Assembly (NCBI RefSeq): GCF_052324685.1
Contig: NW_027506913.1
Location: forward strand, 1 to 64,000
Length of the DNA stretch: 64,000 nucleotides
Direction: 5' to 3'
Origin: Brachyhypopomus gauderio
Lineage: Eukaryota; Chordata; Actinopteri; Gymnotiformes; Hypopomidae
A program made the translations under genes and the position numbers. Under the pieces are notes generated by a model. The model worked only from the letters and a program-made list of their open reading frames with translations. It was not told the DNA's origin and did not search any database. Positions within the stretch are counted from its first letter, which is position 1, and each line of letters starts with the position of its first letter. Positions 1-64,000 of this stretch are shown here, in pieces.

Positions 1-36
1 CAGAGTCCAGAGTGCTAACCATTACACCATGGAACC
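1..36 (-). tRNA. tRNA-Gln-CTG: tRNA-Gln(CTG), cut by window edge
   Basis: This is the 5' half only: acceptor GGTTCCA, D arm and 5' anticodon stem CTGGA with CTCTG of the loop. The T arm that separates type I from type II lies outside the window. Confidence 0.85.
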
Positions 37-263
37 TACATTAGACATTTCTGAGTCTTGTTTTGCTGGGTTCACAGACCAAGTTAAGCTCAAAGTGACT
101 TGTCATGGGAGAATGCAGGTTGCAACAACTACAGACAAGGACTTCCAGCAACAAGGTAATTAGTGGAGGTATTTGATTTGGTCAACTGAAAGACACTTTC
201 TGTTTACAGTAGTCTTCAACAATGAAAGCTGGTACAATCCCAGATAAAGAGCATGTAGCAGAA
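37..263 (-). repeat. A-spacer, representative copy (227 bp)
   Basis: This spacer lies upstream of type I or II genes and downstream of TTG or type I genes throughout the array. Read on the coding strand it has only T3 runs (CTTTC, CTTTATC, CTTTGAG) and no T4. The tRNA that precedes it in transcription ends CCTTTCTGC, also T3. Variants near the tRNA 5' end (acattagac, acgttagac, acatgagac, aaaagataag on +) and at the middle (catggga/cttgaga; gataatt/ggtaatt/gatattt/gatgttt) define recombining subtypes. I see no gene in it. Confidence 0.85.
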
Positions 264-335
264 AGGTTCCACCGAGAGTCGAACTCGGATCACTGGATTC
301 AAAGTCCAGAGTGCTGACCATTACACCATGGAACC
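264..335 (-). tRNA. tRNA-Gln-TTG: tRNA-Gln(TTG)
   Basis: Unit 1, taken as the reference TTG gene. It decodes CAA glutamine codons. Cloverleaf: acceptor GGTTCCA/TGGAACC with T73; D stem GTGT/GCAC with loop AATGGTCA; anticodon stem CTGGA/TCCAG with loop CTTTGAA (anticodon TTG); variable TGAT; T stem CCGAG/CTCGG with loop TTCGACT. A box TGGTGTAATGG and B box GAGTTCGACTC are internal. The 3' flank is CCTTTCTGC, only T3, so termination may be weak. A T4 lies just upstream. I call this the stem-paired form, with A15. Confidence 0.96.
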
Positions 336-341
336 CACAGC

Positions 342-345
342 AAAA
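342..345 (-). terminator. T4 run upstream of tRNA-Gln(TTG), representative
   Basis: The coding strand reads AACTTTTGC about 7 nt before the TTG gene. It should stop Pol III coming from the relic side. It is present in the 28 bp TTG-relic gap of the units I inspected. Confidence 0.55.
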
Positions 346-363
346 GTTGTTTCTAGCAAATGA

Positions 364-475
364 GTTGCTGGATTCAGAGTTCAGAATGCTAACACCATGG
401 AACCAGCAAATAGGTTTCCAACTTCTCTGCCGTTGATTTCAGAGTCTGTTGTGCTTACTACTGCATCACGCAACC
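364..475 (-). pseudogene. tRNA-Gln relic pair (5' half plus older relic), reference copy
   Basis: Unit 1. Bases 364-404 are the 5' half of a tRNA-Gln(CTG): GGTTCCATGGTG, a D loop lacking about six bases, an anticodon arm with loop CTCTGAA, then nothing resembling a T arm. The 5' stem reads CTGAA, an A30·C40 mismatch (A30 form, GG start). Bases 412-475 are an older relic. It starts GGTTGC on the coding strand, keeps AGCAC and GACTCTGAA at the expected spacing, and ends GGAAACCT, but its T arm is eroded. The A box is broken in the half-tRNA. Neither should yield a working tRNA. Confidence 0.75.
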
Positions 476-730
476 AAAGAAATTAGCTTTTGTGAATACT
501 GTTTTGCTGAACACATAGCAAAACATCCTGTCCTGAGACCCTAGCATATTTGGATTTAAATGACTTCACCAATTCTAGGATAATCAGAAAGCTGTTTGCC
601 ACAAGAACAAGCATGTAAAAATTCTGAAAACAATTCATGAAATATGCTGGAATTATATAGACCGCAAGCATGTGATAGAGCTTGCATGGAGAAAAGACCT
701 GCAAGCTGGAATCAACACTAATGAATCAAA
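476..730 (-). repeat. B-spacer, representative copy (255 bp)
   Basis: One copy lies between the older relic and the type II gene in every unit. It contains several coding-strand T4/T5 runs, for example in 500-540 and 616-628. Parts match the A-spacer in order: attag...tgttttgctg...acacatag near its left end, and atgaaa..gctgg...agcatgt near its right. I infer a diverged A-spacer. It holds a 73-codon open frame on the minus strand that I do not accept as a gene. Confidence 0.8.
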
Positions 731-731
731 A
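728..731 (-). terminator. T4 terminator of tRNA-Gln(CTG) type II, representative
   Basis: The coding strand reads GAACCTTTTGATTC: the T run begins at the discriminator base. This is a canonical minimal Pol III terminator and would leave a trailer of only a few nt. It appears at every type II gene inspected and at no TTG or type I gene. Confidence 0.75.
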
Positions 732-802
732 GGTTCCACTGAGAGTTGAACTCAGATTGCTGGATTCAGAGTCCAGAGTGCTAACCATTACACCATGGAA
801 CC
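731..802 (-). tRNA. tRNA-Gln-CTG: tRNA-Gln(CTG) type II
   Basis: Unit 1, reference type II gene; decodes CAG. Acceptor GGTTCCA/TGGAACC, D stem GTGT/GCAC, anticodon stem CTGGA/TCCAG with loop CTCTGAA (CTG), variable CAAT, T stem CTGAG/CTCAG with loop TTCAACT. The C50-G64 pair of type I is here T50-A64, so pairing is kept. It has a T4 terminator. Confidence 0.96.
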
Positions 803-803
803 T

Positions 804-807
804 AAAA
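804..807 (-). terminator. T4 run at 5' edge of tRNA-Gln(CTG) type II, representative
   Basis: The coding strand reads ATCTTTTAGGTTCC, with T4 ending two bases before the tRNA. It should stop Pol III reading through from the type I or TTG gene beyond. It is found where the spacer begins aaaag on +. It is absent in units 2, 15, 17, 18, 22, 24, 26, 31, 32, 34, 44, 49, 51 and 54, and lost by one base in unit 5 (agaag). Confidence 0.5.
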
Positions 808-1030
808 GATAAGTTCTGATTCTTCTGTTTTGCTGGGTTCACAGACCAAGTTAAGCTCAAAGTGACTTGTCTTGAGAGGATGCAAGTTGCAACAACTACA
901 GACAAGGACTTCCAGCAACAAGATATTTAGTTGAGGTATTCGATTTGGTCAACTGAAAGACACTTTCTGTTTACAGTAGTCTTCAACAATGAAAGCTGGT
1001 ACAATCCCAGATAAAGAGCATGTAGCAGAA

Positions 1031-1102
1031 AGGTTCCACCGAGAGTCGAACTCGGATTGCTGGATTCAGAGTCCAGAGTGCTAACCATTACACCATGGAA
1101 CC
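1031..1102 (-). tRNA. tRNA-Gln-CTG: tRNA-Gln(CTG) type I
   Basis: Unit 1, reference type I gene; decodes CAG. Acceptor, D and anticodon arms as in type II (loop CTCTGAA, variable CAAT). T stem CCGAG/CTCGG with loop TTCGACT, shared with the TTG gene. The 3' flank has only T3 (CCTTTCTGC). Confidence 0.96.
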
Positions 1103-1329
1103 TACGTTAGACACTTCTGAGTCTTGTTTTGCTCGGTTCACAGACCAAGTTAAGCTCAAAGTGACTTGTCATGGGAGAATGCAGGTTGCAACAACTACAG
1201 ACAAGGACTTCCAGCAACAAGATAATTAGTTGAGGTATTTGATTTGGTCAACTGAAAGACACTTTCTGTTTACAGTAGTCTTCAACAATGAAAGCTGGTA
1301 CAATCCCAGATAAAGAGTATGTAGTAGCA

Positions 1330-1401
1330 AGGTTCCACCGAGAGTCGAACTCGGATCACTGGATTCAAAGTCCAGAGTGCTGACCAATACACCATGGAAC
1401 C
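1330..1401 (-). tRNA. tRNA-Gln-TTG: tRNA-Gln(TTG)
   Basis: Unit 2. Stem-paired form with T15 (A box TGGTGTATTGG). Confidence 0.93.
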
Positions 1402-1429
1402 CACAGCAAAAGTTGTTTCTAGCAAATGA

Positions 1430-1541
1430 GTTGCTGGATTCAGAGTCCAGAATGCTAACACCATGGAAACAGCAAATAGGTTTCCAACTTCTCTGTCGTT
1501 GATTTCAGAGTCTGTTGTGCTTACTACTGCATCACGCAACC
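1430..1541 (-). pseudogene. tRNA-Gln relic pair
   Basis: Unit 2. G30 form (paired anticodon stem), start GTTTCC. Confidence 0.7.
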
Positions 1542-1796
1542 AAAGAAATTAGCTTTTGTGAATACTGTTTTGCTGAACACATAGCAAAACATCCTGTCCT
1601 GAGACCCTAGCATATTTGGATTTAAATGACTTCACCAATTCTAGGATAATCAGAAAGCTGTTTGCCACAAGAACAAGCTTGTAAAAATTCTGAAAACAAT
1701 TCATGAAATATGCTGGAATTATATAGACCGCAAGCATGTGATAGAGCTTGCATGGAGAAAAGACCTGCAAGCTGGAATCAACACTAATGAATCAAA

Positions 1797-1868
1797 AGGT
1801 TCCACTGAGAGTTGAACTCAGGTTGCTGGATTCAGAGTCCAGAGTGCTAACCATTACACCATGGAACC
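1797..1868 (-). tRNA. tRNA-Gln-CTG: tRNA-Gln(CTG) type II
   Basis: Unit 2. Variable loop CAAC instead of CAAT. No T4 at the 5' edge. Confidence 0.94.
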
Positions 1869-2095
1869 TACATTAGACATTTCTGAGTCTTGTTTTGCTG
1901 GGTTCACAGACCAAGTTAAGCTCAAAGTGACTTGTCTTGAGAGGATGCAGGTTGCAACAACTACAGACAAGGACTTCCAGCAACAAGATGTTTAGTTGAG
2001 GTATTTGATTTGGTCAACTGAAAGACACTTTCTGTTTACAGTAGTCTTCAACAATGAAAGCTGGTACAATCCCAGATAAAGAGCATGTAGCAGAA

Positions 2096-2167
2096 AGGTT
2101 CCACCGAGAGTCGAACTCGGATCACAAGATTCAAAGTCCAGAGTGCTGACCATTACACCATGGAACC
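2096..2167 (-). tRNA. tRNA-Gln-TTG: tRNA-Gln(TTG), weakened anticodon stem
   Basis: Unit 3. The 3' anticodon stem is TCTTG: a U28·U42 mismatch plus a G29·U41 wobble. It may not fold stably. Confidence 0.85.
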
Positions 2168-2195
2168 CACGGCAAAAGTTGTTTCTAGCAAATGA

Positions 2196-2307
2196 GTTGC
2201 TGGATTCAGAGTCCAGAATGCTAACACCATGGAACCAGCAAATAGGTTTCCAACTTCTCTGCCGTTGATTTCAGAGTCTGTTGTGCTTACTACTGCATCA
2301 CGCAACC
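2196..2307 (-). pseudogene. tRNA-Gln relic pair
   Basis: Unit 3. G30 form, GG start. Confidence 0.7.
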
Positions 2308-2562
2308 AAAGAAATTAGCTTTTGTGAATACTGTTTTGCTGAACACATAGCAAAACATCCTGTCCTGAGACCCTAGCATATTTGGATTTAAATGACTTCA
2401 CCAATTCTAGGATAATCAGAAAGCTGTTTGCCACAAGAACAAGCATGTAAAAATTCTGAAAACAATTCATGAAATATGCTGGAATTATAAAGACCGCAAG
2501 CATGTGATAGAGCTTGCATGGAGAAAAGACCTGCAAGCTGGAATCAACACTAATGAATCAAA

Positions 2563-2634
2563 AGGTTCCACTGAGAGTTGAACTCAGATTGCTGGATTCA
2601 GAGTCCAGAGTGCTAACCATTACACCATGGAACC
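2563..2634 (-). tRNA. tRNA-Gln-CTG: tRNA-Gln(CTG) type II
   Basis: Unit 3. Type form. Confidence 0.95.
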
Positions 2635-2862
2635 TAAAAGATAAGTTCTGATTCTTCTGTTTTGCTGGGTTCACAGACCAAGTTAAGCTCAAAGTGACTT
2701 GTCTTGAGAGGATGCAAGTTGCAACAACTACAGACAAGGACTTCCAGCAACAAGATATTTAGTTGAGGTATTCGATTTGGTCAACTGAAAGACACTTTCT
2801 GTTTACAGTAGTCTTCAACAATGAAAGCTGGTACAATCCCAGATAAAGAGCATGTAGCAGAA

Positions 2863-2934
2863 AGGTTCCACCGAGAGTCGAACTCGGATTGCTGGATTCA
2901 GAGTCCAGAGTGCTAACCATTACACCATGGAACC
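2863..2934 (-). tRNA. tRNA-Gln-CTG: tRNA-Gln(CTG) type I
   Basis: Unit 3, first of two. Type form. Confidence 0.95.
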
Positions 2935-3161
2935 TACATGAGACACTTCTGAGTCTTGTTTTGCTGGGTTCACAGACCAAGTTAAGCTCAAAGTGACTTG
3001 TCATGGGAGAATGCATGTTGCAACAACTACAGACAAGGACTTCCAGCAACAAGATAATTAGTTGAGGTATTTGATTTGGTTAACTGAAAGACACTTTCTG
3101 TTTACACTAGTCTTCAACAACGAAAGCTGGTACAACCCCAGATAAAGAGCATGTAGCAGAA

Positions 3162-3233
3162 AGGTTCCACCGAGAGTCGAACTCGGATTGCTGGATTCAG
3201 AGTCCAGAGTGCTAACCATTACACCATGGAACC
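3162..3233 (-). tRNA. tRNA-Gln-CTG: tRNA-Gln(CTG) type I
   Basis: Unit 3, second of two. Type form. Confidence 0.95.
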
Positions 3234-3460
3234 TACATTAGACATTTCTGAGTCTTGTTTTGCTGGGTTCACAGACCAAGTTAAGCTCAAAGTGACTTGT
3301 CATGGGAGAATGCAGGTTGCAACAACTACAGACAAGGACTTCCAGCAACAAGGTAATTAGTGGAGGTATTTGATTTGGTCAACTGAAAGACACTTTCTGT
3401 TTACAGTAGTCTTCAACAATGAAAGCTGGTACAATCCCAGATAAAGAGCATGTAGCAGAA

Positions 3461-3532
3461 AGGTTCCACAGAGAGTCGAACTCGGATCACTGGATTCAAA
3501 GTCCAGAGTGCTGACCATTACACCATGGAACC
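3461..3532 (-). tRNA. tRNA-Gln-TTG: tRNA-Gln(TTG), T-stem mismatch
   Basis: Unit 4. Stem-paired anticodon arm. The 3' T stem reads CTCTG, breaking the C50-G64 pair. Confidence 0.9.
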
Positions 3533-3560
3533 CACAGCAAAAGTTGTTTCTAGCAAATGA

Positions 3561-3672
3561 GTTGCTGGATTCAGAGTTCAGAATGCTAACACCATGGAAC
3601 CAGCAAATAGGTTTCCAACTTCTCTGCCGTTGATTTCAGAGTCTGTTGTGCTTACTACTGCATCACGCAACC
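3561..3672 (-). pseudogene. tRNA-Gln relic pair
   Basis: Unit 4. A30 form, GG start. Confidence 0.7.
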
Positions 3673-3927
3673 AAAGAAATTAGCTTTTGTGAATACTGTT
3701 TTGCTGAACACATAGCAAAACATCCTGTCCTGAGACCCTAGCATATTTGGATTTAAATGACTTCACCAATTCTAGGATAATCAGAAAGCTGTTTGCCACA
3801 AGAACAAGCATGTAAAAATTCTGAAAACAATTCATGAAAAATGCTGGAATTATAAAGACCGCAAGCATGTGATAGAGCTTGCATGGAGAAAAGACCTGCA
3901 AGCTGGAATCAACACTAATGAATCAAA

Positions 3928-4598: not shown

Positions 4599-4626
4599 CA
4601 CGGCAAAAGTTGTTTCTAGCAAATGA

Positions 4627-21620: not shown

Positions 21621-21875
21621 AAAGAAATTAGCTTTTGTGAATACTGTTTTGCTGAACACATAGCAAAACATCCTGTCCTGAGACCCTAGCATATTTGGAT
21701 TTAAATGACTTCACCAATTCTAGGATAATCAGAAAGCTGTTTGCCACAAGAACAAGCATGTAAAAATTCTGAAAACAATTCATGAAAAATGCTGGAATTA
21801 TAAAGACCGCAAGCATGTGATAGAGCTTGCATGGAGAAAAGACCTGCAAGCTGGAATCAACACTAATGAATCAAA

Positions 21876-21945
21876 AGGTTCCACTGAGAGTTGAACTCAG
21901 ATTGCTGGATTCAGTCCAGAGTGCTAACCATTACACCATGGAACC
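21876..21945 (-). pseudogene. tRNA-Gln(CTG) type II with 2-base anticodon-loop deletion
   Basis: Unit 20. The anticodon arm reads CTGGA-CTGAA-TCCAG: the loop is five bases instead of seven. Everything else matches type II. It cannot present a normal anticodon, so I call it a pseudogene. The loss explains the 1064 bp step. Confidence 0.88.
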
Positions 21946-22173
21946 TAAAAGATAAGTTCTGATTCTTCTGTTTTGCTGGGTTCACAGACCAAGTTAAGCT
22001 CAAAGTGACTTGTCTTGAGAGGATGCAAGTTGCAACAACTACAGACAAGGACTTCCAGCAACAAGATGTTTAGTTGAGGTATTCAATTTGGTCAACTGAA
22101 AGACACTTTCTGTTTACACTAGTCTTCAACAACGAAAGCTGGTACAACCCCTGATAAAGAGCATGTAGCAGAA

Positions 22174-35668: not shown

Positions 35669-35895
35669 TACATTAGACATTTCTGAGTCTTGTTTTGCTG
35701 GGTTCACAGACCAAGTTAAGCTCAAAGTGACTTGTCTTGAGAGGATGCAGGTTGCAACAACTACAGACAAGGACTTCCAGCAACAAGATGTTTAGTTGAG
35801 GTATTCGATTTGGTCAACTGAAAGACACTTTCTGTTTACAGTAGTCTTCAACAATGAAAGCTGGTACAATCCCAGATAAAGAGCATGTAGCAGAA

Positions 35896-35967
35896 AGGTT
35901 CCACCGAGAGTCGAACTCGGATTGCTGGATTCAGAGTCCAGAGTGCTAACCATTACACCATGGAACC
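35896..35967 (-). tRNA. tRNA-Gln-CTG: tRNA-Gln(CTG) type I
   Basis: Unit 34, first of two. Type form. Confidence 0.95.
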
Positions 35968-36194
35968 TACATGAGACACTTCTGAGTCTTGTTTTGCTGG
36001 GTTCACAGACCAAGTTAAGCTCAAAGTGACTTGTCATGGGAGAATGCATGTTGCAACAACTACAGACAAGGACTTCCAGCAACAAGATAATTAGTTGAGG
36101 TATTTGATTTGGTCAACTGAAAGACACTTTCTGTTTACACTAGTCTTCAACAACGAAAGCTGGTACAACCCCAGATAAAGAGCATGTAGCAGAA

Positions 36195-36266
36195 AGGTTC
36201 CACCGAGAGTCGAACTCGGATTGCTGGATTCAGAGTGCAGAGTGCTAACCATTACACCATGGAACC
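36195..36266 (-). tRNA. tRNA-Gln-CTG: tRNA-Gln(CTG) type I, C30 change
   Basis: Unit 34, second of two. The anticodon stem CTGCA/TCCAG has a C30·C40 mismatch. Confidence 0.87.
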
Positions 36267-36493
36267 TACATTAGACATTTCTGAGTCTTGTTTTGCTGGG
36301 TTCACAGACCAAGTTAAGCTCAAAGTGACTTGTCATGGGAGAATGCAGGTTGCAACAACTACAGACAAGGACTTCCAGCAACAAGGTAATTAGTGGAGGT
36401 ATTTGATTTGGTCAACTGAAAGACACTTTCTGTTTACAGTAGTCTTCAACAATGAAAGCTGGTACAATCCCAGATAAAGAGCATGTAGCAGAA

Positions 36494-36565
36494 AGGTTCC
36501 ACCGAGAGTCGAACTCGGATCACTGGATTCAAAGTCCAGAGTGCTGACCATTACACCATGGAACC
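36494..36565 (-). tRNA. tRNA-Gln-TTG: tRNA-Gln(TTG)
   Basis: Unit 35. Stem-paired form, A15. Confidence 0.95.
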
Positions 36566-36593
36566 CACAGCAAAAGTTGTTTCTAGCAAATGA

Positions 36594-36705
36594 GTTGCTG
36601 GATTCAGAGTTCAGAATGCTAACACCATGGAACCAGCAAATAGGTTTCCAACTTCTCTGCCGTTGATTTCAGAGTCTGTTGTGCTTACTACTGCATCACG
36701 CAACC
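36594..36705 (-). pseudogene. tRNA-Gln relic pair
   Basis: Unit 35. A30 form, GG start. Confidence 0.7.
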
Positions 36706-36960
36706 AAAGAAATTAGCTTTTGTGAATACTGTTTTGCTGAACACATAGCAAAACATCCTGTCCTGAGACCCTAGCATATTTGGATTTAAATGACTTCACC
36801 AATTCTAGGATAATCAGAAAGCTGTTTGCCACAAGAACAAGCATGTAAAAATTCTGAAAACAATTCATGAAATATGCTGGAATTATAAAGACCGCAAGCA
36901 TGTGATAGAGCTTGCATGGAGAAAAGACCTGCAAGCTGGAATCAACACTAATGAATCAAA

Positions 36961-37032
36961 AGGTTCCACTGAGAGTTGAACTCAGATTGCTGGATTCAGA
37001 GTCCAGAGTGCTAACCATTACACCATGGAACC
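36961..37032 (-). tRNA. tRNA-Gln-CTG: tRNA-Gln(CTG) type II
   Basis: Unit 35. Type form. Confidence 0.95.
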
Positions 37033-37260
37033 TAAAAGATAAGTTCTGATTCTTCTGTTTTGCTGGGTTCACAGACCAAGTTAAGCTCAAAGTGACTTGT
37101 CTTGAGAGGATGCAAGTTGCAACAACTACAGACAAGGACTTCCAGCAACAAGATGTTTAGTTGAGGTATTCGATTTGGTCAACTGAAAGACACTTTCTGT
37201 TTACACTAGTCTTCAACAACGAAAGCTGGTACAACCCCTGATAAAGAGCATGTAGCAGAA

Positions 37261-37332
37261 AGGTTCCACCGAGAGTCGAACTTGGATTGCTGGATTCAGA
37301 GTCCAGCGTGCTAACCATTACACCATGGAACC
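37261..37332 (-). tRNA. tRNA-Gln-CTG: tRNA-Gln(CTG) type I, A51/G26 variant
   Basis: Unit 35. A51·C63 mismatch and G26. Confidence 0.9.
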
Positions 37333-37559
37333 TACGTTAGACACTTCTGAGTCTTGTTTTGCTGGGTTCACAGACCAAGTTAAGCTCAAAGTGACTTGTC
37401 ATGGGAGAATGCATGTTGCAACAACTACAGACAAGGACTTCCAGCAACAAGATAATTAGTTGAGGTATTTGATTTGGTCAACTGAAAGACACTTTCTGTT
37501 TACAGTAGTCTTCAACAATGAAAGCTGGTACAATCCCAGATAAAGAGTATGTAGTAGAA

Positions 37560-37631
37560 AGGTTCCACCGAGAGTCGAACTCGGATCACAGGATTCAAAG
37601 TCCAGAGTGCTGACCATTACACCATGGAACC
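37560..37631 (-). tRNA. tRNA-Gln-TTG: tRNA-Gln(TTG), U28·U42 form
   Basis: Unit 36. A15; cggc flank. Confidence 0.92.
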
Positions 37632-37659
37632 CACGGCAAAAGTTGTTTCTAGCAAATGA

Positions 37660-37771
37660 GTTGCTGGATTCAGAGTCCAGAATGCTAACACCATGGAACC
37701 AGCAAATAGGTTTCCAACTTCTCTGCCGTTGATTTCAGAGTCTGTTGTGCTTACTACTGCATCACGCAACC
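37660..37771 (-). pseudogene. tRNA-Gln relic pair
   Basis: Unit 36. G30 form, GG start. Confidence 0.7.
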
Positions 37772-38026
37772 AAAGAAATTAGCTTTTGTGAATACTGTTT
37801 TGCTGAACACATAGCAAAACATCCTGTCCTGAGACCCTAGCATATTTGGATTTAAATGACTTCACCAATTCTAGGATAATCAGAAAGCTGTTTGCCACAA
37901 GAACAAGCATGTAAAAATTCTGAAAACAATTCATGAAATATGCTGGAATTATAAAGACCGCAAGCATGTGATAGAGCTTGCATGGAGAAAAGACCTGCAA
38001 GCTGGAATCAACACTAATGAATCAAA

Positions 38027-38098
38027 AGGTTCCACTGAGAGTTGAACTCAGATTGCTGGATTCAGAGTCCAGAGTGCTAACCATTACACCATGGAACC
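38027..38098 (-). tRNA. tRNA-Gln-CTG: tRNA-Gln(CTG) type II
   Basis: Unit 36. Type form. Confidence 0.95.
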
Positions 38099-38326
38099 TA
38101 AAAGATAAGTTCTGATTCTTCTGTTTTGCTGGGTTCACAGACCAAGTTAAGCTCAAAGTGACTTGTCTTGAGAGGATGCAAGTTGCAACAACTACAGACA
38201 AGGACTTCCAGCAACAAGATATTTAGTTGAGGTATTCGATTTGGTCAACTGAAAGACACTTTCTGTTTACAGTAGTCTTCAACAATGAAAGCTGGTACAA
38301 TCCCAGATAAAGAGCATGTAGCAGAA

Positions 38327-38398
38327 AGGTTCCACCGAGAGTCGAACTCGGATTGCTGGATTCAGAGTCCAGAGTGCTAACCATTACACCATGGAACC
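38327..38398 (-). tRNA. tRNA-Gln-CTG: tRNA-Gln(CTG) type I
   Basis: Unit 36. Type form. Confidence 0.95.
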
Positions 38399-38625
38399 TA
38401 CGTTAGACACTTCTGAGTCTTGTTTTGCTCGGTTCACAGACCAAGTTAAGCTCAAAGTGACTTGTCATGGGAGAATGCAGGTTGCAACAACTACAGACAA
38501 GGACTTCCAGCAACAAGATAATTAGTTGAGGTATTTGATTTGGTCAACTGAAAGACACTTTCTGTTTACAGTAGTCTTCAACAATGAAAGCTGGTACAAT
38601 CCCAGATAAAGAGTATGTAGTAGAA

Positions 38626-38697
38626 AGGTTCCACCGAGAGTCGAACTCGGATCACTGGATTCAAAGTCCAGAGTGCTGACCAATACACCATGGAACC
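38626..38697 (-). tRNA. tRNA-Gln-TTG: tRNA-Gln(TTG)
   Basis: Unit 37. Stem-paired form, T15. Confidence 0.93.
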
Positions 38698-38725
38698 CAC
38701 AGCAAAAGTTGTTTCTAGCAAATGA

Positions 38726-38837
38726 GTTGCTGGATTCAGAGTCCAGAATGCTAACACCATGGAACCAGCAAATAGGTTTCCAACTTCTCTGCCGTTGATT
38801 TCAGAGTCTGTTGTGCTTACTACTGCATCACGCAACC
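38726..38837 (-). pseudogene. tRNA-Gln relic pair
   Basis: Unit 37. G30 form, GG start, a combination with T15 that differs from units 2 and 15. Confidence 0.7.
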
Positions 38838-39092
38838 AAAGAAATTAGCTTTTGTGAATACTGTTTTGCTGAACACATAGCAAAACATCCTGTCCTGAGA
38901 CCCTAGCATATTTGGATTTAAATGACTTCACCAATTCTAGGATAATCAGAAAGCTGTTTGCCACAAGAACAAGCATGTAAAAATTCTGAAAACAATTCAT
39001 GAAATATGCTGGAATTATAAAGACCGCAAGCATGTGATAGAGCTTGCATGGAGAAAAGACCTGCAAGCTGGAATCAACACTAATGAATCAAA

Positions 39093-39164
39093 AGGTTCCA
39101 CTGAGAGTTGAACTCAGATTGCTGGATTCAGAGTCCAGAGTGCTAACCATTACACCATGGAACC
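39093..39164 (-). tRNA. tRNA-Gln-CTG: tRNA-Gln(CTG) type II
   Basis: Unit 37. Type form. Confidence 0.95.
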
Positions 39165-39392
39165 TAAAAGATAAGTTCTGATTCTTCTGTTTTGCTGGGT
39201 TCACAGACCAAGTTAAGCTCAAAGTGACTTGTCTTGAGAGGATGCAAGTTGCAACAACTACAGACAAGGACTTCCAGCAACAAGATATTTAGTTGAGGTA
39301 TTCGATTTGGTCAACTGAAAGACACTTTCTGTTTACAGTAGTCTTCAACAATGAAAGCTGGTACAATCCCAGATAAAGAGCATGTAGCAGAA

Positions 39393-39464
39393 AGGTTCCA
39401 CCGAGAGTCGAACTCGGATTGCTGGATTCAGAGTCCAGAGTGCTAACCATTACACCATGGAACC
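39393..39464 (-). tRNA. tRNA-Gln-CTG: tRNA-Gln(CTG) type I
   Basis: Unit 37, first of four. Type form. Confidence 0.95.
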
Positions 39465-39691
39465 TACATGAGACACTTCTGAGTCTTGTTTTGCTGGGTT
39501 CACAGACCAAGTTAAGCTCAAAGTGACTTGTCATGGGAGAATGCATGTTGCAACAACTACAGACAAGGACTTCCAGCAACAAGATAATTAGTTGAGGTAT
39601 TTGATTTGGTCAACTGAAAGACACTTTCTGTTTACACTAGTCTTCAACAACGAAAGCTGGTACAACCCCAGATAAAGAGCATGTAGCAGAA

Positions 39692-39763
39692 AGGTTCCAC
39701 CGAGAGTCGAACTCGGATTGCTGGATTCAGAGTCCAGAGTGCTAACCATTACACCATGGAACC
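39692..39763 (-). tRNA. tRNA-Gln-CTG: tRNA-Gln(CTG) type I
   Basis: Unit 37, second of four. Type form; the spacer to its right lacks 2 bp (gagtcgttttg). Confidence 0.95.
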
Positions 39764-39988
39764 TACATTAGACATTTCTGAGTCGTTTTGCTGGGTTCAC
39801 AGACCAAGTTAAGCTCAAAGTGACTTGTCATGGGAGAATGCAGGTTGCAACAACTACAGACAAGGACTTCCAGCAACAAGGTAATTAGTGGAGGTATTTG
39901 ATTTGGTCAACTGAAAGACACTTTCTGTTTACAGTAGTCTTCAACAATGAAAGCTGGTACAATCCCAGATAAAGAGCATGTAGCAGAA

Positions 39989-40060
39989 AGGTTCCACCGA
40001 GAGTCGAACTCGGATTGCTGGATTCAGAGTCCAGAGTGCTAACCATTACACCATGGAACC
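39989..40060 (-). tRNA. tRNA-Gln-CTG: tRNA-Gln(CTG) type I
   Basis: Unit 37, third of four. Type form. Confidence 0.95.
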
Positions 40061-40287
40061 TACATGAGACACTTCTGAGTCTTGTTTTGCTGGGTTCACA
40101 GACCAAGTTAAGCTCAAAGTGACTTGTCATGGGAGAATGCATGTTGCAACAACTACAGACAAGGACTTCCAGCAACAAGATAATTAGTTGAGGTATTTGA
40201 TTTGGTTAACTGAAAGACACTTTCTGTTTACACTAGTCTTCAACAACGAAAGCTGGTACAACCCCAGATAAAGAGCATGTAGCAGAA

Positions 40288-40359
40288 AGGTTCCACCGAG
40301 AGTCGAACTCGGATTGCTGGATTCAGAGTCCAGAGTGCTAACCATTACACCATGGAACC
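40288..40359 (-). tRNA. tRNA-Gln-CTG: tRNA-Gln(CTG) type I
   Basis: Unit 37, fourth of four. Type form. Confidence 0.95.
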
Positions 40360-40586
40360 TACATTAGACATTTCTGAGTCTTGTTTTGCTGGGTTCACAG
40401 ACCAAGTTAAGCTCAAAGTGACTTGTCATGGGAGAATGCAGGTTGCAACAACTACAGACAAGGACTTCTAGCAACAAGGTAATTAGTGGAGGTATTTGAT
40501 TTGGTCAACTGAAAGACACTTTCTGTTTACAGTAGTCTTCAACAATGAAAGCTGGTACAATCCCAGATAAAGAGCATGTAGCAGAA

Positions 40587-40658
40587 AGGTTCCACCGAGA
40601 GTCGAACTCGGATCACTGGATTCAAAGTCCAGAGTGCTGACCATTACACCATGGAACC
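40587..40658 (-). tRNA. tRNA-Gln-TTG: tRNA-Gln(TTG)
   Basis: Unit 38. Stem-paired form, A15. Confidence 0.95.
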
Positions 40659-40686
40659 CACAGCAAAAGTTGTTTCTAGCAAATGA

Positions 40687-40798
40687 GTTGCTGGATTCAG
40701 AGTTCAGAATGCTAACACCATGGAACCAGCAAATAGGTTTCCAACTTCTCTGCCGTTGATTTCAGAGTCTGTTGTGCTTACTACTGCATCACGCAACC
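40687..40798 (-). pseudogene. tRNA-Gln relic pair
   Basis: Unit 38. A30 form, GG start. Confidence 0.7.
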
Positions 40799-41053
40799 AA
40801 AGAAATTAGCTTTTGTGAATACTGTTTTGCTGAACACATAGCAAAACATCCTGTCCTGAGACCCTAGCATATTTGGATTTAAATGACTTCACCAATTCTA
40901 GGATAATCAGAAAGCTGTTTGCCACAAGAACAAGCATGTAAAAATTCTGAAAACAATTCATGAAAAATGCTGGAATTATAAAGACCGCAAGCATGTGATA
41001 GAGCTTGCATGGAGAAAAGACCTGCAAGCTGGAATCAACACTAATGAATCAAA

Positions 41054-41125
41054 AGGTTCCACTGAGAGTTGAACTCAGATTGCTGGATTCAGAGTCCAGA
41101 GTGCTAACCATTACACCATGGAACC
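41054..41125 (-). tRNA. tRNA-Gln-CTG: tRNA-Gln(CTG) type II
   Basis: Unit 38. Type form. Confidence 0.95.
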
Positions 41126-41353
41126 TAAAAGATAAGTTCTGATTCTTCTGTTTTGCTGGGTTCACAGACCAAGTTAAGCTCAAAGTGACTTGTCTTGAGA
41201 GGATGCAAGTTGCAACAACTACAGACAAGGACTTCCAGCAACAAGATGTTTAGTTGAGGTATTCGATTTGGTCAACTGAAAGACACTTTCTGTTTACACT
41301 AGTCTTCAACAACGAAAGCTGGTACAACCCCTGATAAAGAGCATGTAGCAGAA

Positions 41354-54628: not shown

Positions 54629-54656
54629 CACGGCAAAAGTTGTTTCTAGCAAATGA

Positions 54657-54768
54657 GTTGCTGGATTCAGAGTCCAGAATGCTAACACCATGGAACCAGC
54701 AAATAGGTTTCCAACTTCTCTGCCGTTGATTTCAGAGTCTGTTGTGCTTACTACTGCATCACGCAACC
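54657..54768 (-). pseudogene. tRNA-Gln relic pair
   Basis: Unit 50. G30 form, GG start. Confidence 0.7.
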
Positions 54769-54867
54769 AAAGAAATTAGCTTTTGTGAATACTGTTTTGC
54801 TGAACACATAGCAAAACATCCTGTCCTGAGACCCTAGCATATTTGAGAAGTTGGAAACCTATTTGCT

Positions 54868-54908
54868 GGTTCCATGGTGTTAGCATTCTGAACTCTGAAT
54901 CCAGCAAC
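54868..54908 (+). pseudogene. Half-tRNA-Gln relic, inverted copy
   Basis: A30 form with GG start, whereas the direct relic of the same unit is G30. The inverted segment was thus copied from a different unit, or a mosaic. Confidence 0.8.
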
Positions 54909-54936
54909 TCATTTGCTAGAAACAACTTTTGCCGTG

Positions 54937-54964
54937 GGTTCCATGGTGTAATGGTCAGCACTCT
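54937..54964 (+). pseudogene. tRNA-Gln(TTG) 5' fragment, inverted
   Basis: Acceptor 5' strand, whole D arm and the first anticodon-stem bases (GGTCAGCACTCT), then cut at the breakpoint. It has an A box but no B box. Confidence 0.82.
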
Positions 54965-55007
54965 ATTCCAATATTTCATGAAAACAATTCATGAAATATG
55001 CTGGAAT
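54965..55007. repeat. Foldback hairpin at inversion edge
   Basis: The left arm attccaatatttcatgaa is the reverse complement of the right arm ttcatgaaatatgctggaat apart from a missing GC. The arms flank a short A-rich loop. This is the expected scar of a template switch to the opposite strand. Confidence 0.8.
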
Positions 55008-55084
55008 TATAAAGACCGCAAGCATGTGATAGAGCTTGCATGGAGAAAAGACCTGCAAGCTGGAATCAACACTAATGAATCAAA

Positions 55085-56820: not shown

Positions 56821-56848
56821 CACGGCAAAAGTTGTTTCTAGCAAATGA

Positions 56849-56960
56849 GTTGCTGGATTCAGAGTCCAGAATGCTAACACCATGGAACCAGCAAATAGGT
56901 TTCCAACTTCTCTGCCGTTGATTTCAGAGTCTGTTGTGCTTACTACTGCATCACGCAACC
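56849..56960 (-). pseudogene. tRNA-Gln relic pair
   Basis: Unit 52. G30 form, GG start. Confidence 0.7.
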
Positions 56961-57059
56961 AAAGAAATTAGCTTTTGTGAATACTGTTTTGCTGAACACA
57001 TAGCAAAACATCCTGTCCTGAGACCCTAGCATATTTGAAAAGTTGGAAACCTATTTGCT

Positions 57060-57100
57060 GGTTCCATGGTGTTAGCATTCTGAACTCTGAATCCAGCAAC
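57060..57100 (+). pseudogene. Half-tRNA-Gln relic, inverted copy
   Basis: Second copy; A30 form. Confidence 0.8.
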
Positions 57101-57128
57101 TCATTTGCTAGAAACAACTTTTGCCGTG

Positions 57129-57156
57129 GGTTCCATGGTGTAATGGTCAGCACTCT
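57129..57156 (+). pseudogene. tRNA-Gln(TTG) 5' fragment, inverted
   Basis: Second copy; ends at the same breakpoint. Confidence 0.82.
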
Positions 57157-57199
57157 ATTCCAATATTTCATGAAAACAATTCATGAAATATGCTGGAAT
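57157..57199. repeat. Foldback hairpin, second copy
   Basis: Same foldback arms as 54965-55007. Confidence 0.8.
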
Positions 57200-57276
57200 T
57201 ATAAAGACCGCAAGCATGTGATAGAGCTTGCATGGAGAAAAGACCTGCAAGCTGGAATCAACACTAATGAATCAAA

Positions 57277-60078: not shown

Positions 60079-60106
60079 CACGGCAAAAGTTGTTTCTAGC
60101 AAATGA

Positions 60107-60218
60107 GTTGCTGGATTCAGAGTCCAGAATGCTAACACCATGGAACCAGCAAATAGGTTTCCAACTTCTCTGCCGTTGATTTCAGAGTCTGTTGTGCTTA
60201 CTACTGCATCACGCAACC
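60107..60218 (-). pseudogene. tRNA-Gln relic pair
   Basis: Unit 55. G30 form, GG start. Confidence 0.7.
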
Positions 60219-60473
60219 AAAGAAATTAGCTTTTGTGAATACTGTTTTGCTGAACACATAGCAAAACATCCTGTCCTGAGACCCTAGCATATTTGGATTT
60301 AAATGACTTCACCAATTCTAGGATAATCAGAAAGCTGTTTGCCACAAGAACAAGCATGTAAAAATTCTGAAAACAATTCATGAAATATGCTGGAATTATA
60401 AAGACCGCAAGCATGTGATAGAGCTTGCATGGAGAAAAGACCTGCAAGCTGGAATCAACACTAATGAATCAAA

Positions 60474-60545
60474 AGGTTCCACTGAGAGTTGAACTCAGAT
60501 TGCTGGATTCAGAGTCCAGAGTGCTAACCATTACACCATGGAACC
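60474..60545 (-). tRNA. tRNA-Gln-CTG: tRNA-Gln(CTG) type II
   Basis: Unit 55. Type form. Confidence 0.95.
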
Positions 60546-60773
60546 TAAAAGATAAGTTCTGATTCTTCTGTTTTGCTGGGTTCACAGACCAAGTTAAGCT
60601 CAAAGTGACTTGTCTTGAGAGGATGCAAGTTGCAACAACTACAGACAAGGACTTCCAGCAACAAGATGTTTAGTTGAGGTATTCGATTTGGTCAACTGAA
60701 AGACACTTTCTGTTTACACTAGTCTTCAACAACGAAAGCTGGTACAACCCCTGATAAAGAGCATGTAGCAGAA

Positions 60774-60845
60774 AGGTTCCACCGAGAGTCGAACTTGGAT
60801 TGCTGGATTCAGAGTCCAGCGTGCTAACCATTACACCATGGAACC
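60774..60845 (-). tRNA. tRNA-Gln-CTG: tRNA-Gln(CTG) type I, A51/G26 variant
   Basis: Unit 55. A51·C63 mismatch and G26. Confidence 0.9.
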
Positions 60846-61072
60846 TACGTTAGACACTTCTGAGTCTTGTTTTGCTGGGTTCACAGACCAAGTTAAGCTC
60901 AAAGTGACTTGTCATGGGAGAATGCATGTTGCAACAACTACAGACAAGGACTTCCAGCAACAAGATAATTAGTTGAGGTATTTGATTTGGTCAACTGAAA
61001 GACACTTTCTGTTTACAGTAGTCTTCAACAATGAAAGCTGGTACAATCCCAGATAAAGAGTATGTAGTAGAA

Positions 61073-61144
61073 AGGTTCCACCGAGAGTCGAACTCGGATC
61101 ACAGGATTCAAAGTCCAGAGTGCTGACCATTACACCATGGAACC
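61073..61144 (-). tRNA. tRNA-Gln-TTG: tRNA-Gln(TTG), U28·U42 form
   Basis: Unit 56. A15; cggc flank. Confidence 0.92.
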
Positions 61145-61172
61145 CACGGCAAAAGTTGTTTCTAGCAAATGA

Positions 61173-61284
61173 GTTGCTGGATTCAGAGTCCAGAATGCTA
61201 ACACCATGGAACCAGCAAATAGGTTTCCAACTTCTCTGCCGTTGATTTCAGAGTCTGTTGTGCTTACTACTGCATCACGCAACC
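61173..61284 (-). pseudogene. tRNA-Gln relic pair
   Basis: Unit 56. G30 form, GG start. Confidence 0.7.
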
Positions 61285-61539
61285 AAAGAAATTAGCTTTT
61301 GTGAATACTGTTTTGCTGAACACATAGCAAAACATCCTGTCCTGAGACCCTAGCATATTTGGATTTAAATGACTTCACCAATTCTAGGATAATCAGAAAG
61401 CTGTTTGCCACAAGAACAAGCATGTAAAAATTCTGAAAACAATTCATGAAATATGCTGGAATTATAAAGACCGCAAGCATGTGATAGAGCTTGCATGGAG
61501 AAAAGACCTGCAAGCTGGAATCAACACTAATGAATCAAA

Positions 61540-61611
61540 AGGTTCCACTGAGAGTTGAACTCAGATTGCTGGATTCAGAGTCCAGAGTGCTAACCATTAC
61601 ACCATGGAACC
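61540..61611 (-). tRNA. tRNA-Gln-CTG: tRNA-Gln(CTG) type II
   Basis: Unit 56. Type form. Confidence 0.95.
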
Positions 61612-61839
61612 TAAAAGATAAGTTCTGATTCTTCTGTTTTGCTGGGTTCACAGACCAAGTTAAGCTCAAAGTGACTTGTCTTGAGAGGATGCAAGTTGCA
61701 ACAACTACAGACAAGGACTTCCAGCAACAAGATATTTAGTTGAGGTATACGATTTGGTCAACTGAAAGACACTTTCTGTTTACAGTAGTCTTCAACAATG
61801 AAAGCTGGTACAATCCCAGATAAAGAGCATGTAGCAGAA

Positions 61840-61911
61840 AGGTTCCACCGAGAGTCGAACTCGGATTGCTGGATTCAGAGTCCAGAGTGCTAACCATTAC
61901 ACCATGGAACC
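61840..61911 (-). tRNA. tRNA-Gln-CTG: tRNA-Gln(CTG) type I
   Basis: Unit 56, first of three. Type form. Confidence 0.95.
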
Positions 61912-62138
61912 TACGTTAGACACTTCTGAGTCTTGTTTTGCTCGGTTCACAGACCAAGTTAAGCTCAAAGTGACTTGTCATGGGAGAATGCAGGTTGCAA
62001 CAACTACAGACAAGGACTTCCAGCAACAAGATAATTAGTTGAGGTATTTGATTTGGTCAACTGAAAGACACTTTCTGTTTACAGTAGTCTTCAACAATGA
62101 AAGCTGGTACAATCCCAGATAAAGAGCATGTAGCAGAA

Positions 62139-62210
62139 AGGTTCCACCGAGAGTCGAACTCGGATTGCTGGATTCAGAGTCCAGAGTGCTAACCATTACA
62201 CCATGGAACC
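62139..62210 (-). tRNA. tRNA-Gln-CTG: tRNA-Gln(CTG) type I
   Basis: Unit 56, second of three. Type form. Confidence 0.95.
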
Positions 62211-62437
62211 TACATGAGACACTTCTGAGTCTTGTTTTGCTGGGTTCACAGACCAAGTTAAGCTCAAAGTGACTTGTCATGGGAGAATGCATGTTGCAAC
62301 AACTACAGACAAGGACTTCCAGCAACAAGATAATTAGTTGAGGTATTTGATTTGGTCAACTGAAAGACACTTTCTGTTTACACTAGTCTTCAACAACGAA
62401 AGCTGGTACAACCCCAGATAAAGAGCATGTAGCAGAA

Positions 62438-62509
62438 AGGTTCCACCGAGAGTCGAACTCGGATTGCTGGATTCAGAGTCCAGAGTGCTAACCATTACAC
62501 CATGGAACC
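62438..62509 (-). tRNA. tRNA-Gln-CTG: tRNA-Gln(CTG) type I
   Basis: Unit 56, third of three. Type form; spacer to its right has gagtcgttttg. Confidence 0.95.
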
Positions 62510-62734
62510 TACATTAGACATTTCTGAGTCGTTTTGCTGGGTTCACAGACCAAGTTAAGCTCAAAGTGACTTGTCATGGGAGAATGCAGGTTGCAACAAC
62601 TACAGACAAGGACTTCCAGCAACAAGGTAATTAGTGGAGGTATTTGATTTGGTCAACTGAAAGACACTTTCTGTTTACAGTAGTCTTCAACAATGAAAGC
62701 TGGTACAATCCCAGATAAAGAGCATGTAGCAGAA

Positions 62735-62806
62735 AGGTTCCACCAAGAGTCGAACTCGGATCACTGGATTCAAAGTCCAGAGTGCTGACCATTACACCAT
62801 GGAACC
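62735..62806 (-). tRNA. tRNA-Gln-TTG: tRNA-Gln(TTG), U63 variant
   Basis: Unit 57. Stem-paired, A15; G51·U63 wobble, as in unit 48. Confidence 0.93.
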
Positions 62807-62834
62807 CACAGCAAAAGTTGTTTCTAGCAAATGA

Positions 62835-62946
62835 GTTGCTGGATTCAGAGTCCAGAATGCTAACACCATGGAACCAGCAAATAGGTTTCCAACTTCTCTG
62901 CCGTTGATTTCAGAGTCTGTTGTGCTTACTACTGCATCACGCAACC
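62835..62946 (-). pseudogene. tRNA-Gln relic pair
   Basis: Unit 57. G30 form, GG start. Confidence 0.7.
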
Positions 62947-63201
62947 AAAGAAATTAGCTTTTGTGAATACTGTTTTGCTGAACACATAGCAAAACATCCT
63001 GTCCTGAGACCCTAGCATATTTGGATTTAAATGACTTCACCAATTCTAGGATAATCAGAAAGCTGTTTGCCACAAGAACAAGCATGTAAAAATTCTGAAA
63101 ACAATTCATGAAATATGCTGGAATTATAAAGACCGCAAGCATGTGATAGAGCTTGCATGGAGAAAAGACCTGCAAGCTGGAATCAACACTAATGAATCAA
63201 A

Positions 63202-63273
63202 AGGTTCCACTGAGAGTTGAACTCAGATTGCTGGATTCAGAGTCCAGAGTGCTAACCATTACACCATGGAACC
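63202..63273 (-). tRNA. tRNA-Gln-CTG: tRNA-Gln(CTG) type II
   Basis: Unit 57. Type form. Confidence 0.95.
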
Positions 63274-63501
63274 TAAAAGATAAGTTCTGATTCTTCTGTT
63301 TTGCTGGGTTCACAGACCAAGTTAAGCTCAAAGTGACTTGTCTTGAGAGGATGCAAGTTGCAACAACTACAGACAAGGACTTCCAGCAACAAGATATTTA
63401 GTTGAGGTATTCGATTTGGTCAACTGAAAGACACTTTCTGTTTACAGTAGTCTTCAACAATGAAAGCTGGTACAATCCCAGATAAAGAGCATGTAGCAGA
63501 A

Positions 63502-63573
63502 AGGTTCCACCGAGAGTCGAACTCGGATTGCTGGATTCAGAGTCCAGAGTGCTAACCATTACACCATGGAACC
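63502..63573 (-). tRNA. tRNA-Gln-CTG: tRNA-Gln(CTG) type I
   Basis: Unit 57. Type form. Confidence 0.95.
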
Positions 63574-63800
63574 TACATTAGACACTTCTGAGTCTTGTTT
63601 TGCTCGGTTCACAGACCAAGTTAAGCTCAAAGTGACTTGTCATGGGAGAATGCAGGTTGCAACAACTACAGACAAGGACTTCCAGCAACAAGATAATTAG
63701 TTGAGGTATTTGATTTGGTCAACTGAAAGACACTTTCTGTTTACAGTAGTCTTCAACAATGAAAGCTGGTACAATCCCAGATAAAGAGTATGTAGTAGAA

Positions 63801-63872
63801 AGGTTCCACCGAGAGTCGAACTCGGATCACTGGATTCAAAGTCCAGAGTGCTGACCAATACACCATGGAACC
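63801..63872 (-). tRNA. tRNA-Gln-TTG: tRNA-Gln(TTG)
   Basis: Unit 58. Stem-paired form, T15. Confidence 0.93.
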
Positions 63873-63900
63873 CACAGCAAAAGTTGTTTCTAGCAAATGA

Positions 63901-64000
63901 GTTGCTGGATTCAGAGTCCAGAATGCTAACACCATGGAAACAGCAAATAGGTTTCCAACTTCTCTGTCGTTGATTTCAGAGTCTGTTGTGCTTACTACTG
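63901..64000 (-). pseudogene. tRNA-Gln relic pair, cut by window edge
   Basis: Unit 58. G30 form, start GTTTCC; the older relic runs off the window. Confidence 0.68.

Follow-up and report, generated by a model that had tools for sequence, protein, structure and literature searches.

A Gln-only tRNA gene array with a higher-order unit in Brachyhypopomus gauderio

Known tRNA gene arrays and the Gln array

Giant tRNA gene arrays are hard to annotate, and whether they represent a maternal tRNA supply or satellite DNA is a standing question. In Xenopus, the tRNA repeat mixes several amino acids. The oocyte-specific tandem arrays of this genus contain 5fC and come into use when the zygotic genome is activated (PMC11500080). 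In zebrafish, isodecoders expressed early are located in repetitive regions (PMC11417395), Chr4R Region-2 concentrates tRNA genes together with maternal 5S and snRNA genes (PMC11075544), and neighbouring tRNA genes mostly form heterogeneous pairs, most often K-N, K-S and R-T (PMC2888827). Single-amino-acid arrays have been described for plants, with 27 tRNA-Pro genes in Arabidopsis and 28 tRNA-Ile genes in maize (PMC12652284) and also, in Arabidopsis, four to six repeats of tRNA-Cys (PMC10701932). The SYY array of the same plant, methylated and not expressed in most tissues, is active in cells of the root cap (PMC12308677). Alleles of the human tRNA repeat at 1q23.3 comprise 9-43 units, and variants distinguish one unit from another (PMC4041453). 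Finally, the tRNA-Gln-derived SINE Sm-alpha of Schistosoma mansoni counts 2,368 copies, RepeatMasker classing 2,342 as SINE (PMC2770079).

The array described here consists, like the oocyte-type arrays of Xenopus and Pleurodeles, of tandem tRNA genes in very large numbers, and differs from the Xenopus repeat in encoding Gln only. The three array types found on its two contigs recall the tRNA gene concentration of zebrafish Chr4R, whereas the zebrafish pairs are mostly heterogeneous and the Gln array is restricted to one amino acid. Tandem genes for one or two amino acids are shared with the Arabidopsis SYY and Pro arrays and with maize Ile; however, the plant arrays comprise tens of units (27 SYY, 27 Pro, 28 Ile) against about 1,100 Gln genes (extrapolated), and no T-b(n)-a higher-order grammar (see below) is described for them in the passages compared. 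The human 1q23.3 repeat is likewise a tRNA macrosatellite but its unit is 7.3 kb long, GC-rich and CpG-rich, with five tRNA genes for four amino acids on both strands. Sm-alpha is also a massive amplification of tRNA-Gln, while the Gln array is tandem and one-stranded, with complete genes and unit spacers. A search by titles and the start of abstracts, with partial literature coverage, found no published Gln-only array this large, which is a weak negative. The first-pass annotation had considered a Gln-only array unusual, and this is fair for a vertebrate-type array, although single-amino-acid arrays as such are known from Arabidopsis and maize (PMC12652284, PMC10701932).

Extent and organization of the array

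The stretch of DNA analysed here (the window, 64,000 nucleotides) forms the left end of contig C69 (positions 1-64000 of 1.03 Mb), and the genome totals 796.5 Mb. ARAGORN called 181 tRNAs, every one of them on the minus strand, namely 122 Gln(CTG), 58 Gln(TTG) and one 'Ser(TGA)', and Rfam RF00005 matched 181/181 copies (63 in positions 1-22300 and 118 in 22301-64000) with 49.9-68.8 bits, against a gathering score of 29. These results bear out the 181 full-length tRNA-Gln loci of the first-pass annotation, as well as its TTG:CTG ratio of 58:123 if the 'Ser' copy, which has a 2-nt deletion, is counted as CTG. Covariance scores below threshold for most copies, named there as grounds for rejecting the array, were not found, since all 181 pass with a minimum of 49.9 bits. 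The absence of any other gene was confirmed insofar as no Rfam family other than RF00005 exceeded its own cut-off in the whole window and no protein-coding gene was seen in the 64 kb. All stop-to-stop frames of at least 100 aa represent a single frame of 106 aa, present in 19 copies with at most four differences between any pair, and the two of the 19 copies that were scanned had no Pfam match. A single orientation, also claimed, holds for the 181 genes but not for two long D spacers, which contain an inverted half-gene.

In sense order, the repeating unit is a TTG gene (class T) followed by 0-4 CTG genes of type b and one CTG gene of type a. The 57 complete T-b(n)-a units of the window follow this order without exception, and a larger sample (144 kb) contains 113 such units with a b number of 0-7. 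The features of the window are as follows.

1..64000, minus strand: Gln-only tRNA higher-order array, 181 tRNAs, all above the Rfam gathering score
264..335, minus strand: class T gene (anticodon TTG), example of 58 copies in the window
336..730, minus strand: spacer D, 395 nt, from class a to the next class T gene (example)
365..404, minus strand: truncated tRNA-Gln 5' relic (positions 1-46, 6-nt gap) inside spacer D, scoring 66 locally where shuffles reached at most 27
728..731, minus strand: sense-strand TTTT that overlaps the discriminator of a class a gene, directly at its 3' end (example)
731..802, minus strand: class a gene (CTG, T-stem CTGAG/CTCAG), example of 57 copies
803..1030, minus strand: spacer S, which follows T and b genes and mostly measures 227-228 nt (b>a example)
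1031..1102, minus strand: class b gene (CTG, T-stem CCGAG/CTCGG), example of 66 copies
21875..21946, minus strand: CTG-type copy lacking 2 nt in the anticodon loop, miscalled as tRNA-Ser
35807..41327, no strand: 5,521-bp block recurring at +4,093 bp with 99.84% identity, containing a 3,305-bp exact repeat
54629..55084, no strand: long D spacer of 456 nt containing an inverted segment, made up of a TTG gene's 5' half, upstream sequence and relic
56821..57276, no strand: second long D spacer, again with this inverted segment

Spacer D measures exactly 395 nt in 54/57 cases, and the core of its relic occurs 58 times in the window. A second tRNA relic in this spacer (GGTTGCGTGATGC...) reached a local score of 21, below the 95% shuffle level of 23, and is not claimed. 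The end of spacer S has a weak tRNA-like stretch (score 26). Both long D spacers sit in a 2,972-bp duplicate block (99.8%, offset 2,192). The T-b(n)-a unit was not part of the first-pass annotation, and neither were the terminator confined to class a, the CpG decay and the maternal-type reading treated below.

The differences between classes break no base pair. Class a is marked within the array by A45 and U50-A64 and has a consensus without CpG, and class T by U44 G45 and C20a. The B-box motif GTTCRANNC is kept in 180/181 copies, and the A box has its consensus form in 164/181, with T15 in 16/181. Class b is a-like at sites 20, 34, 44 and 45 and T-like at 49, 56 and 63 (65/66 copies), a pattern that fits a hybrid formed by one crossover inside the gene. 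This origin was nevertheless set aside, as C54 and the array edge have intermediate copies, which combine CTGAG with CTCGG or a CTG anticodon with TG at 44-45. Given that such intermediate states exist, class a can arise stepwise by CpG loss, with the polarity being possible either way.

Beyond the window, the array was read continuously to position 104,000 of C69, and samples were positive to about 196,800 (about 197 kb). On a second contig, C54, it occupies 1,295,852-1,500,095 in the same orientation, i.e., the last 204 kb to the contig end, an extent resting partly on S-core and DNA matches and samples, and it is broken up by a TE-like insert. Altogether, the array was read through in 144 kb, matches and samples cover about 400 kb on two contigs, and its Gln-only composition holds at every place read or sampled. 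The total of about 1,100 genes is an extrapolation, and the true copy number may differ, as both contigs break inside arrays. With genes spaced regularly at 299/300 and 467 bp and sequences near-identical, a chance origin is excluded. Genome-wide, there are 794 S cores on one strand only (794 versus 0, the first places being listed). In the database sets genome_contigs and viral_contigs, exact scans with a 36-base S core gave no match. A tRNA-derived SINE, i.e., dispersed copies with a non-tRNA body and a 3' tail, does not match this strand count or the strict one-strand tandem order.

C54 also carries a tRNA-Ile array on its left (1-2,000, then at 50, 100 and 200 kb, sampled) and C69 a Trp/Gly array on its right (seven sampled places, 640 to 1,029.6 kb), so that three tRNA array types lie on the two contigs. 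Linkage to other Pol III arrays, as in zebrafish Chr4R, was thus found at the sampled places, and we infer that C54 adjoins C69. The Gln array is therefore not isolated, and a maternal-type array may be considered as a further reading. This example shows that, next to a mixed Trp/Gly array, a genome can assemble about a thousand genes (extrapolated) for a single amino acid into one array, with no visible selection on single copies.

Homogenisation, decay and selection

No exact direct repeat in the window exceeds 3,305 bp, and the one of this length lies within the 5,521-bp block, which is a recent multi-unit duplication. In spacer S, 182/378 site pairs fail the four-gamete test. The array thus changes through exchange between copies and the duplication of blocks, with units being shared and rearranged. 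Long head-to-tail near-identical units, homogenisation and higher-order structure, as expected of a satellite or macrosatellite, are all present, and the earlier suggestion of a selfish satellite fits this mode of evolution. The array multiplies and decays like satellite DNA, and is a striking case of a known kind of array and not a new gene system.

It could be argued that the assembler over-expanded a short array, and C54 and C69 do both end inside arrays. However, the longest exact repeat is limited to the length given above, there is variation in unit order, SNPs and indels all along the array, and a second contig also contains the array, there interrupted by the TE-like insert. In addition, C69:1-104,000 shares an exact match of 2,379 bp with the end of C54 (1,490,001-1,500,000) but at most 868 bp with inner C54 (1,328,001-1,358,000), and the longer match at the end fits a real array with local homogenisation. 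The probability of an artefact is next to negligible.

Observed/expected CpG is 0.25 in the window, 0.16 in the spacers and 0.009 in class a genes, with TpG (1.41) and CpA (1.44) in excess in the window. The genome background, pooled from six 3-kb samples, is 0.63 and patchy, single samples ranging from 0.27 (C54:1,200,001-1,202,000) to 1.19. Low CpG is no general mark of these arrays, given that the Trp/Gly array of this contig has values of 0.52-0.66 and is not CpG-poor. The shortage suggests long-standing germline methylation of the Gln array.

No per-copy selection on the tRNA was detected from singletons, either in the window (0.69 per kb in tRNA versus 0.91 in spacer, p=0.62) or in the larger set (0.77 versus 0.59, p=0.29). 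Weak constraint may nonetheless act, considering that 18/50 distinct tRNA variants of the larger set break a pair versus 48% expected (p=0.09). A broken pair or indel is present in 41/181 copies of the window and 95/396 of the larger set, and 140/181 window copies keep every pair. Some variants have spread by the array, namely U42 (17/58 T copies) and A51 (12/66 b copies). Diversity is 0.006 in class a genes, below that of the spacers (0.014-0.020). Copies would be maintained as an array, and not through selection on single genes.

These observations bear on the active dosage locus proposed in the first-pass annotation, which the selection tests do not support. An ordinary locus of this type would be the source of most somatic Gln-tRNA, and the very many intact copies with both Gln isoacceptors would suit it. 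In view of the undetected per-copy constraint, the CpG shortage and the missing terminators, we consider it very improbable, and given that C54 and C69 also carry arrays for Ile and Trp/Gly, a special demand for Gln would be an unlikely cause.

Candidate roles and transcript ends

Tandem full-length tRNA genes with intact internal promoters, as in oocyte or maternal-type arrays, are found here. Judging from the normal fold and B box retained by most copies, and from the Ile and Trp/Gly arrays on its contigs, in analogy to the concentration of tRNA genes on zebrafish Chr4R, this tRNA-gene macrosatellite would most likely serve to supply tRNA by Pol III at limited stages, namely in the oocyte and early embryo. 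We give this reading about an even chance. Supply of Gln-tRNA would be limited to these stages, with use in the soma being weak or none.

A close rival, quite possible though short of an even chance, is a silent satellite, in which the genes were functional at the time of the class split and are now methylated, untranscribed and kept by unequal exchange only. The lack of per-copy constraint, the CpG shortage and the missing T4 fit a silent array equally well: new mutations on the tRNA are not reduced relative to the spacers, 41/181 copies carry a broken pair or indel, some of them spread by the array (U42, A51), 124/181 genes have no T4 terminator within 60 nt, and the CpG shortage is strong. 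On the other hand, 140/181 copies keep all pairs, 181/181 score at least 49.9 bits and the B box is intact in 180/181. The Arabidopsis SYY array, silent in most tissues, is active in the root cap (PMC12308677), and since its genes switch on in those cells, silence in one tissue would prove little.

If B boxes mattered and the tRNA product did not, the array could be a chromatin domain marked by Pol III/TFIIIC (a boundary, an anchor or a centromere-proximal block). The conserved B-box motif (180/181) would agree with this, as would the human 1q23.3 tandem repeat, which is bound by CTCF and has been implicated in boundary function (PMC4041453). However, the entire 72-nt gene is kept and not the boxes alone, the A-box consensus varies (T15 in 16/181), and the human case is GC- and CpG-rich, the opposite of the Gln array, which makes this role unlikely.

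The array is well suited to decide between supply and satellite, since the diagnostic bases of the three classes make RNA reads assignable to it, and the difference in terminators predicts different precursors. T4 lies within 60 nt of the gene in 57/57 class a copies, 0/66 class b copies and 0/58 class T copies. Class a genes alone would end transcripts cleanly, whereas transcription of T and b genes would continue into the spacer or as far as the next gene, unless it is terminated in a non-canonical way. Counting the gene and the stretch up to its first T4, precursors would measure about 370, 600 or 900 nt for most T genes and about 300 nt for most b genes. It is conceivable, but rather unlikely, that Pol III transcribes each higher-order unit as a whole, with the TTG gene first, 0-7 CTG genes after it and the class a terminator at its end, and that Gln-tRNAs with both anticodons are cut from a polycistronic precursor. 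T4 depletion in S was dropped as proof of polycistronic transcription, as it is not significant in spacer types other than b>a (P 0.13-0.29). If the model were true, precursor length would vary with the number of b genes, and the precursor could stop early, given that T4 occurs just ahead of the class a gene in 38/44 b>a spacers of the window.

Gene content and unit anatomy

All 181 tRNA genes of the window were placed on the minus strand by ARAGORN, with 122 assigned to Gln-CTG and 58 to Gln-TTG; the remaining one, its single 'Ser' call, is a CTG-type copy with a 2-nt deletion in the anticodon loop. Every one of the 181 exceeded the Rfam RF00005 cut-off (49.9-68.8 bits, gathering score 29 bits), and across the whole window no other Rfam family was above its own cut-off. 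tRNA sequence accounts for 20% of the window. No protein-coding gene was seen among the frames of at least 100 aa, which consist of one 106-aa frame repeated in 19 copies, and the two copies scanned gave no Pfam match.

The genes form three classes, T (anticodon TTG, 58 genes), b (CTG, 66) and a (CTG, 57), and in the sense direction every complete window unit has the order T, zero to four b, a (one b in 27 units, two in 14, none in 13, four in 2 and three in 1). Genes of classes T and b are followed by a spacer of ~227 nt (S), and class a genes by a spacer (D) of exactly 395 nt in 54 of 57 cases, within which lies a truncated tRNA-Gln relic (score 66 vs a shuffle maximum of 27). This T-b(n)-a grammar is kept by 113 units in 144 kb of array, window included, with classes assigned from flank lengths and b genes numbering up to seven. 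The Gln array is certainly a tRNA-gene macrosatellite with higher-order units. Its anticodons change inside the array, since the gene at C69:83,103-83,176 (piece L010, 9103-9176, of C69, the contig that holds the window) occupies a class a position and has a-type diagnostic bases elsewhere, with a TTG anticodon; this is an anticodon switch within the array.

Extent and turnover of the array

C69, of which the window is bases 1-64,000, measures 1,029,644 bp, in a genome of 796.5 Mb and 840 contigs. The S core, a 36-base stretch of spacer S, occurs 794 times genome-wide, on one strand only. On C69, continuous reading of the array reaches 104,000, and samples at 124, 144, 164, 184, 188, 192 and 196 kb contain it; it is absent from the sample 200,001-201,000. 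On a second contig, C54, the S cores among the matches listed begin at 1,295,852, and matches and samples together carry the array to the contig end (1,500,095). Exact sharing with C69:1-104,000 is longer at that end (2,379 bp for C54:1,490,001-1,500,000) than further in (at most 868 bp for C54:1,328,001-1,358,000), which fits neighbouring parts of one array split by the assembly. The whole array would then span ~400 kb and, scaled up from the 403 genes counted in 144 kb, hold roughly 1,100 genes.

At its C54 edge (L021, 6900-8000), degenerate unit copies with unusual base combinations were observed, and these may preserve earlier array states. A TE-like element of ~2.9 kb also interrupts the array on C54 (L014, 180-3135; C54:1,338,180-1,341,135), sitting in spacer S with a TTAA-like joint and inverted ends AACACTAGAAGCGCC / GGCGCTTCTAGTGTT; we take it to be reminiscent of piggyBac.

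Multi-unit blocks have been duplicated nearly intact: a 5,521-bp block recurs at an offset of 4,093 with 99.84% identity, and the longest exact repeat in the window is 3,305 bp. Together with the four-gamete test in S, where 182 of 378 site pairs have all four combinations, these duplicates point to frequent exchange between copies. Two long D spacers (54629-55084 and 56821-57276) contain the same inverted 5' half of a TTG gene with its upstream sequence, and both fall inside a duplicated block, which argues for one odd event that was then copied. As the joint of the inverted segment is palindromic, a template switch is suggested as its origin, copied later with its block.

Constraint, CpG loss and transcription signals

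Individual copies are now under little or no constraint, as judged from singleton rates, pair-breaking counts and class diversities. In the window, with the one indel copy omitted from variant counts, singletons, taken as new variants, were as frequent in tRNA (0.69 per kb) as in spacers (0.91; p=0.62), and of the 20 distinct variants in tRNA, 11 disrupt pairing (48% expected by chance); a broken pair or indel affects 41 of 181 copies. The larger set, which omits 7 of 403 copies whose class was unclear near the end of a piece or next to the insert, gave 0.77 vs 0.59 (p=0.29), 18 of 50 pair-breaking variants (p=0.09) and 95 of 396 affected copies. Pairwise diversity is clearly lower in class a (0.006) than in spacers (0.014-0.020), and that of b (0.012) and T (0.015) is hardly lower. 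The differences between classes leave every pair intact, suggesting either that the genes were functional in the past or that selection acts on the array as a whole.

CpG is depleted, with an observed/expected ratio of 0.25 for the window, 0.16 for spacers and 0.009 for class a genes; the window has TpG at 1.41 and CpA at 1.44. The a and b consensus sequences differ at three positions, each CpG against TpG/CpA, two of them forming the compensated base pair 50-64. Elsewhere in the genome, six samples of 3 kb each gave a pooled CpG of 0.63, a pool that includes one sample in a Trp/Gly tRNA array and one with 500 N; single samples vary widely, with one non-array sample at 0.27. Judging by base composition, the Gln array has probably been methylated in the germline for a long time. 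CpG in the Trp/Gly array is 0.52-0.66, and the measure does not show germline methylation for all tRNA arrays in this genome.

Of the 181 window genes, 180 have an intact B-box motif and 164 an A box of consensus form. T4, the canonical Pol III terminator (TTTT in the sense strand), marks the 3' end of every one of the 57 class a genes, whereas no b gene (66) or T gene (58) of the window has one within 60 nt; its absence in S, taken alone, is not significant. Downstream of T genes the first T4 lies 299, 523 or 822 nt away in 46 of 58 cases, and 38 of 44 b-to-a junctions have it immediately upstream of the class a gene. Provided that termination follows canonical Pol III rules, long or polycistronic precursors would be expected from two thirds of the genes.

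An oocyte-type array would be our first choice of reading, narrowly ahead of a silent satellite. It is preferred on account of two vertebrate cases: isodecoders present in zebrafish eggs originate in repetitive regions (PMC11417395), and zygotic activation in Xenopus switches on oocyte-specific tandem tRNA arrays, with 5fC, as outlined in a commentary (PMC11500080). Large tRNA arrays as such are already known, and plants have arrays for a single amino acid or for two (PMC12308677, PMC10701932 and PMC12652284). The literature searched, with partial coverage, yielded no description of a Gln-only array this large with a T-b(n)-a unit.

Neighbouring tRNA arrays

The right end of C69 is occupied by a second giant tRNA array, the Trp/Gly array (period 1,311 bp), with Trp(CCA) on one strand and Gly(TCC) in part on the other. 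Seven samples between 640 kb and the contig end contain it.

Pieces of the Trp/Gly array
L027 and L036, C69:700,001-706,000
L037-L039
L046-L048

The evidence at 670 kb is a sequence match, with no tRNA called there by ARAGORN, and in the four samples at 800 kb or further right its calls were all Trp. Two Trp and two Gly genes were inspected, and the 30 nt that follow each of them contain no T4. The left end of C54 carries an Ile(AAT) array with a period of 769 bp (L049, C54:1-2000; L050-L052). The sample at 300 kb contained no Ile genes, and further ones are present at 50, 100 and 200 kb, accompanied at 50 kb by one Ala(AGC) gene.
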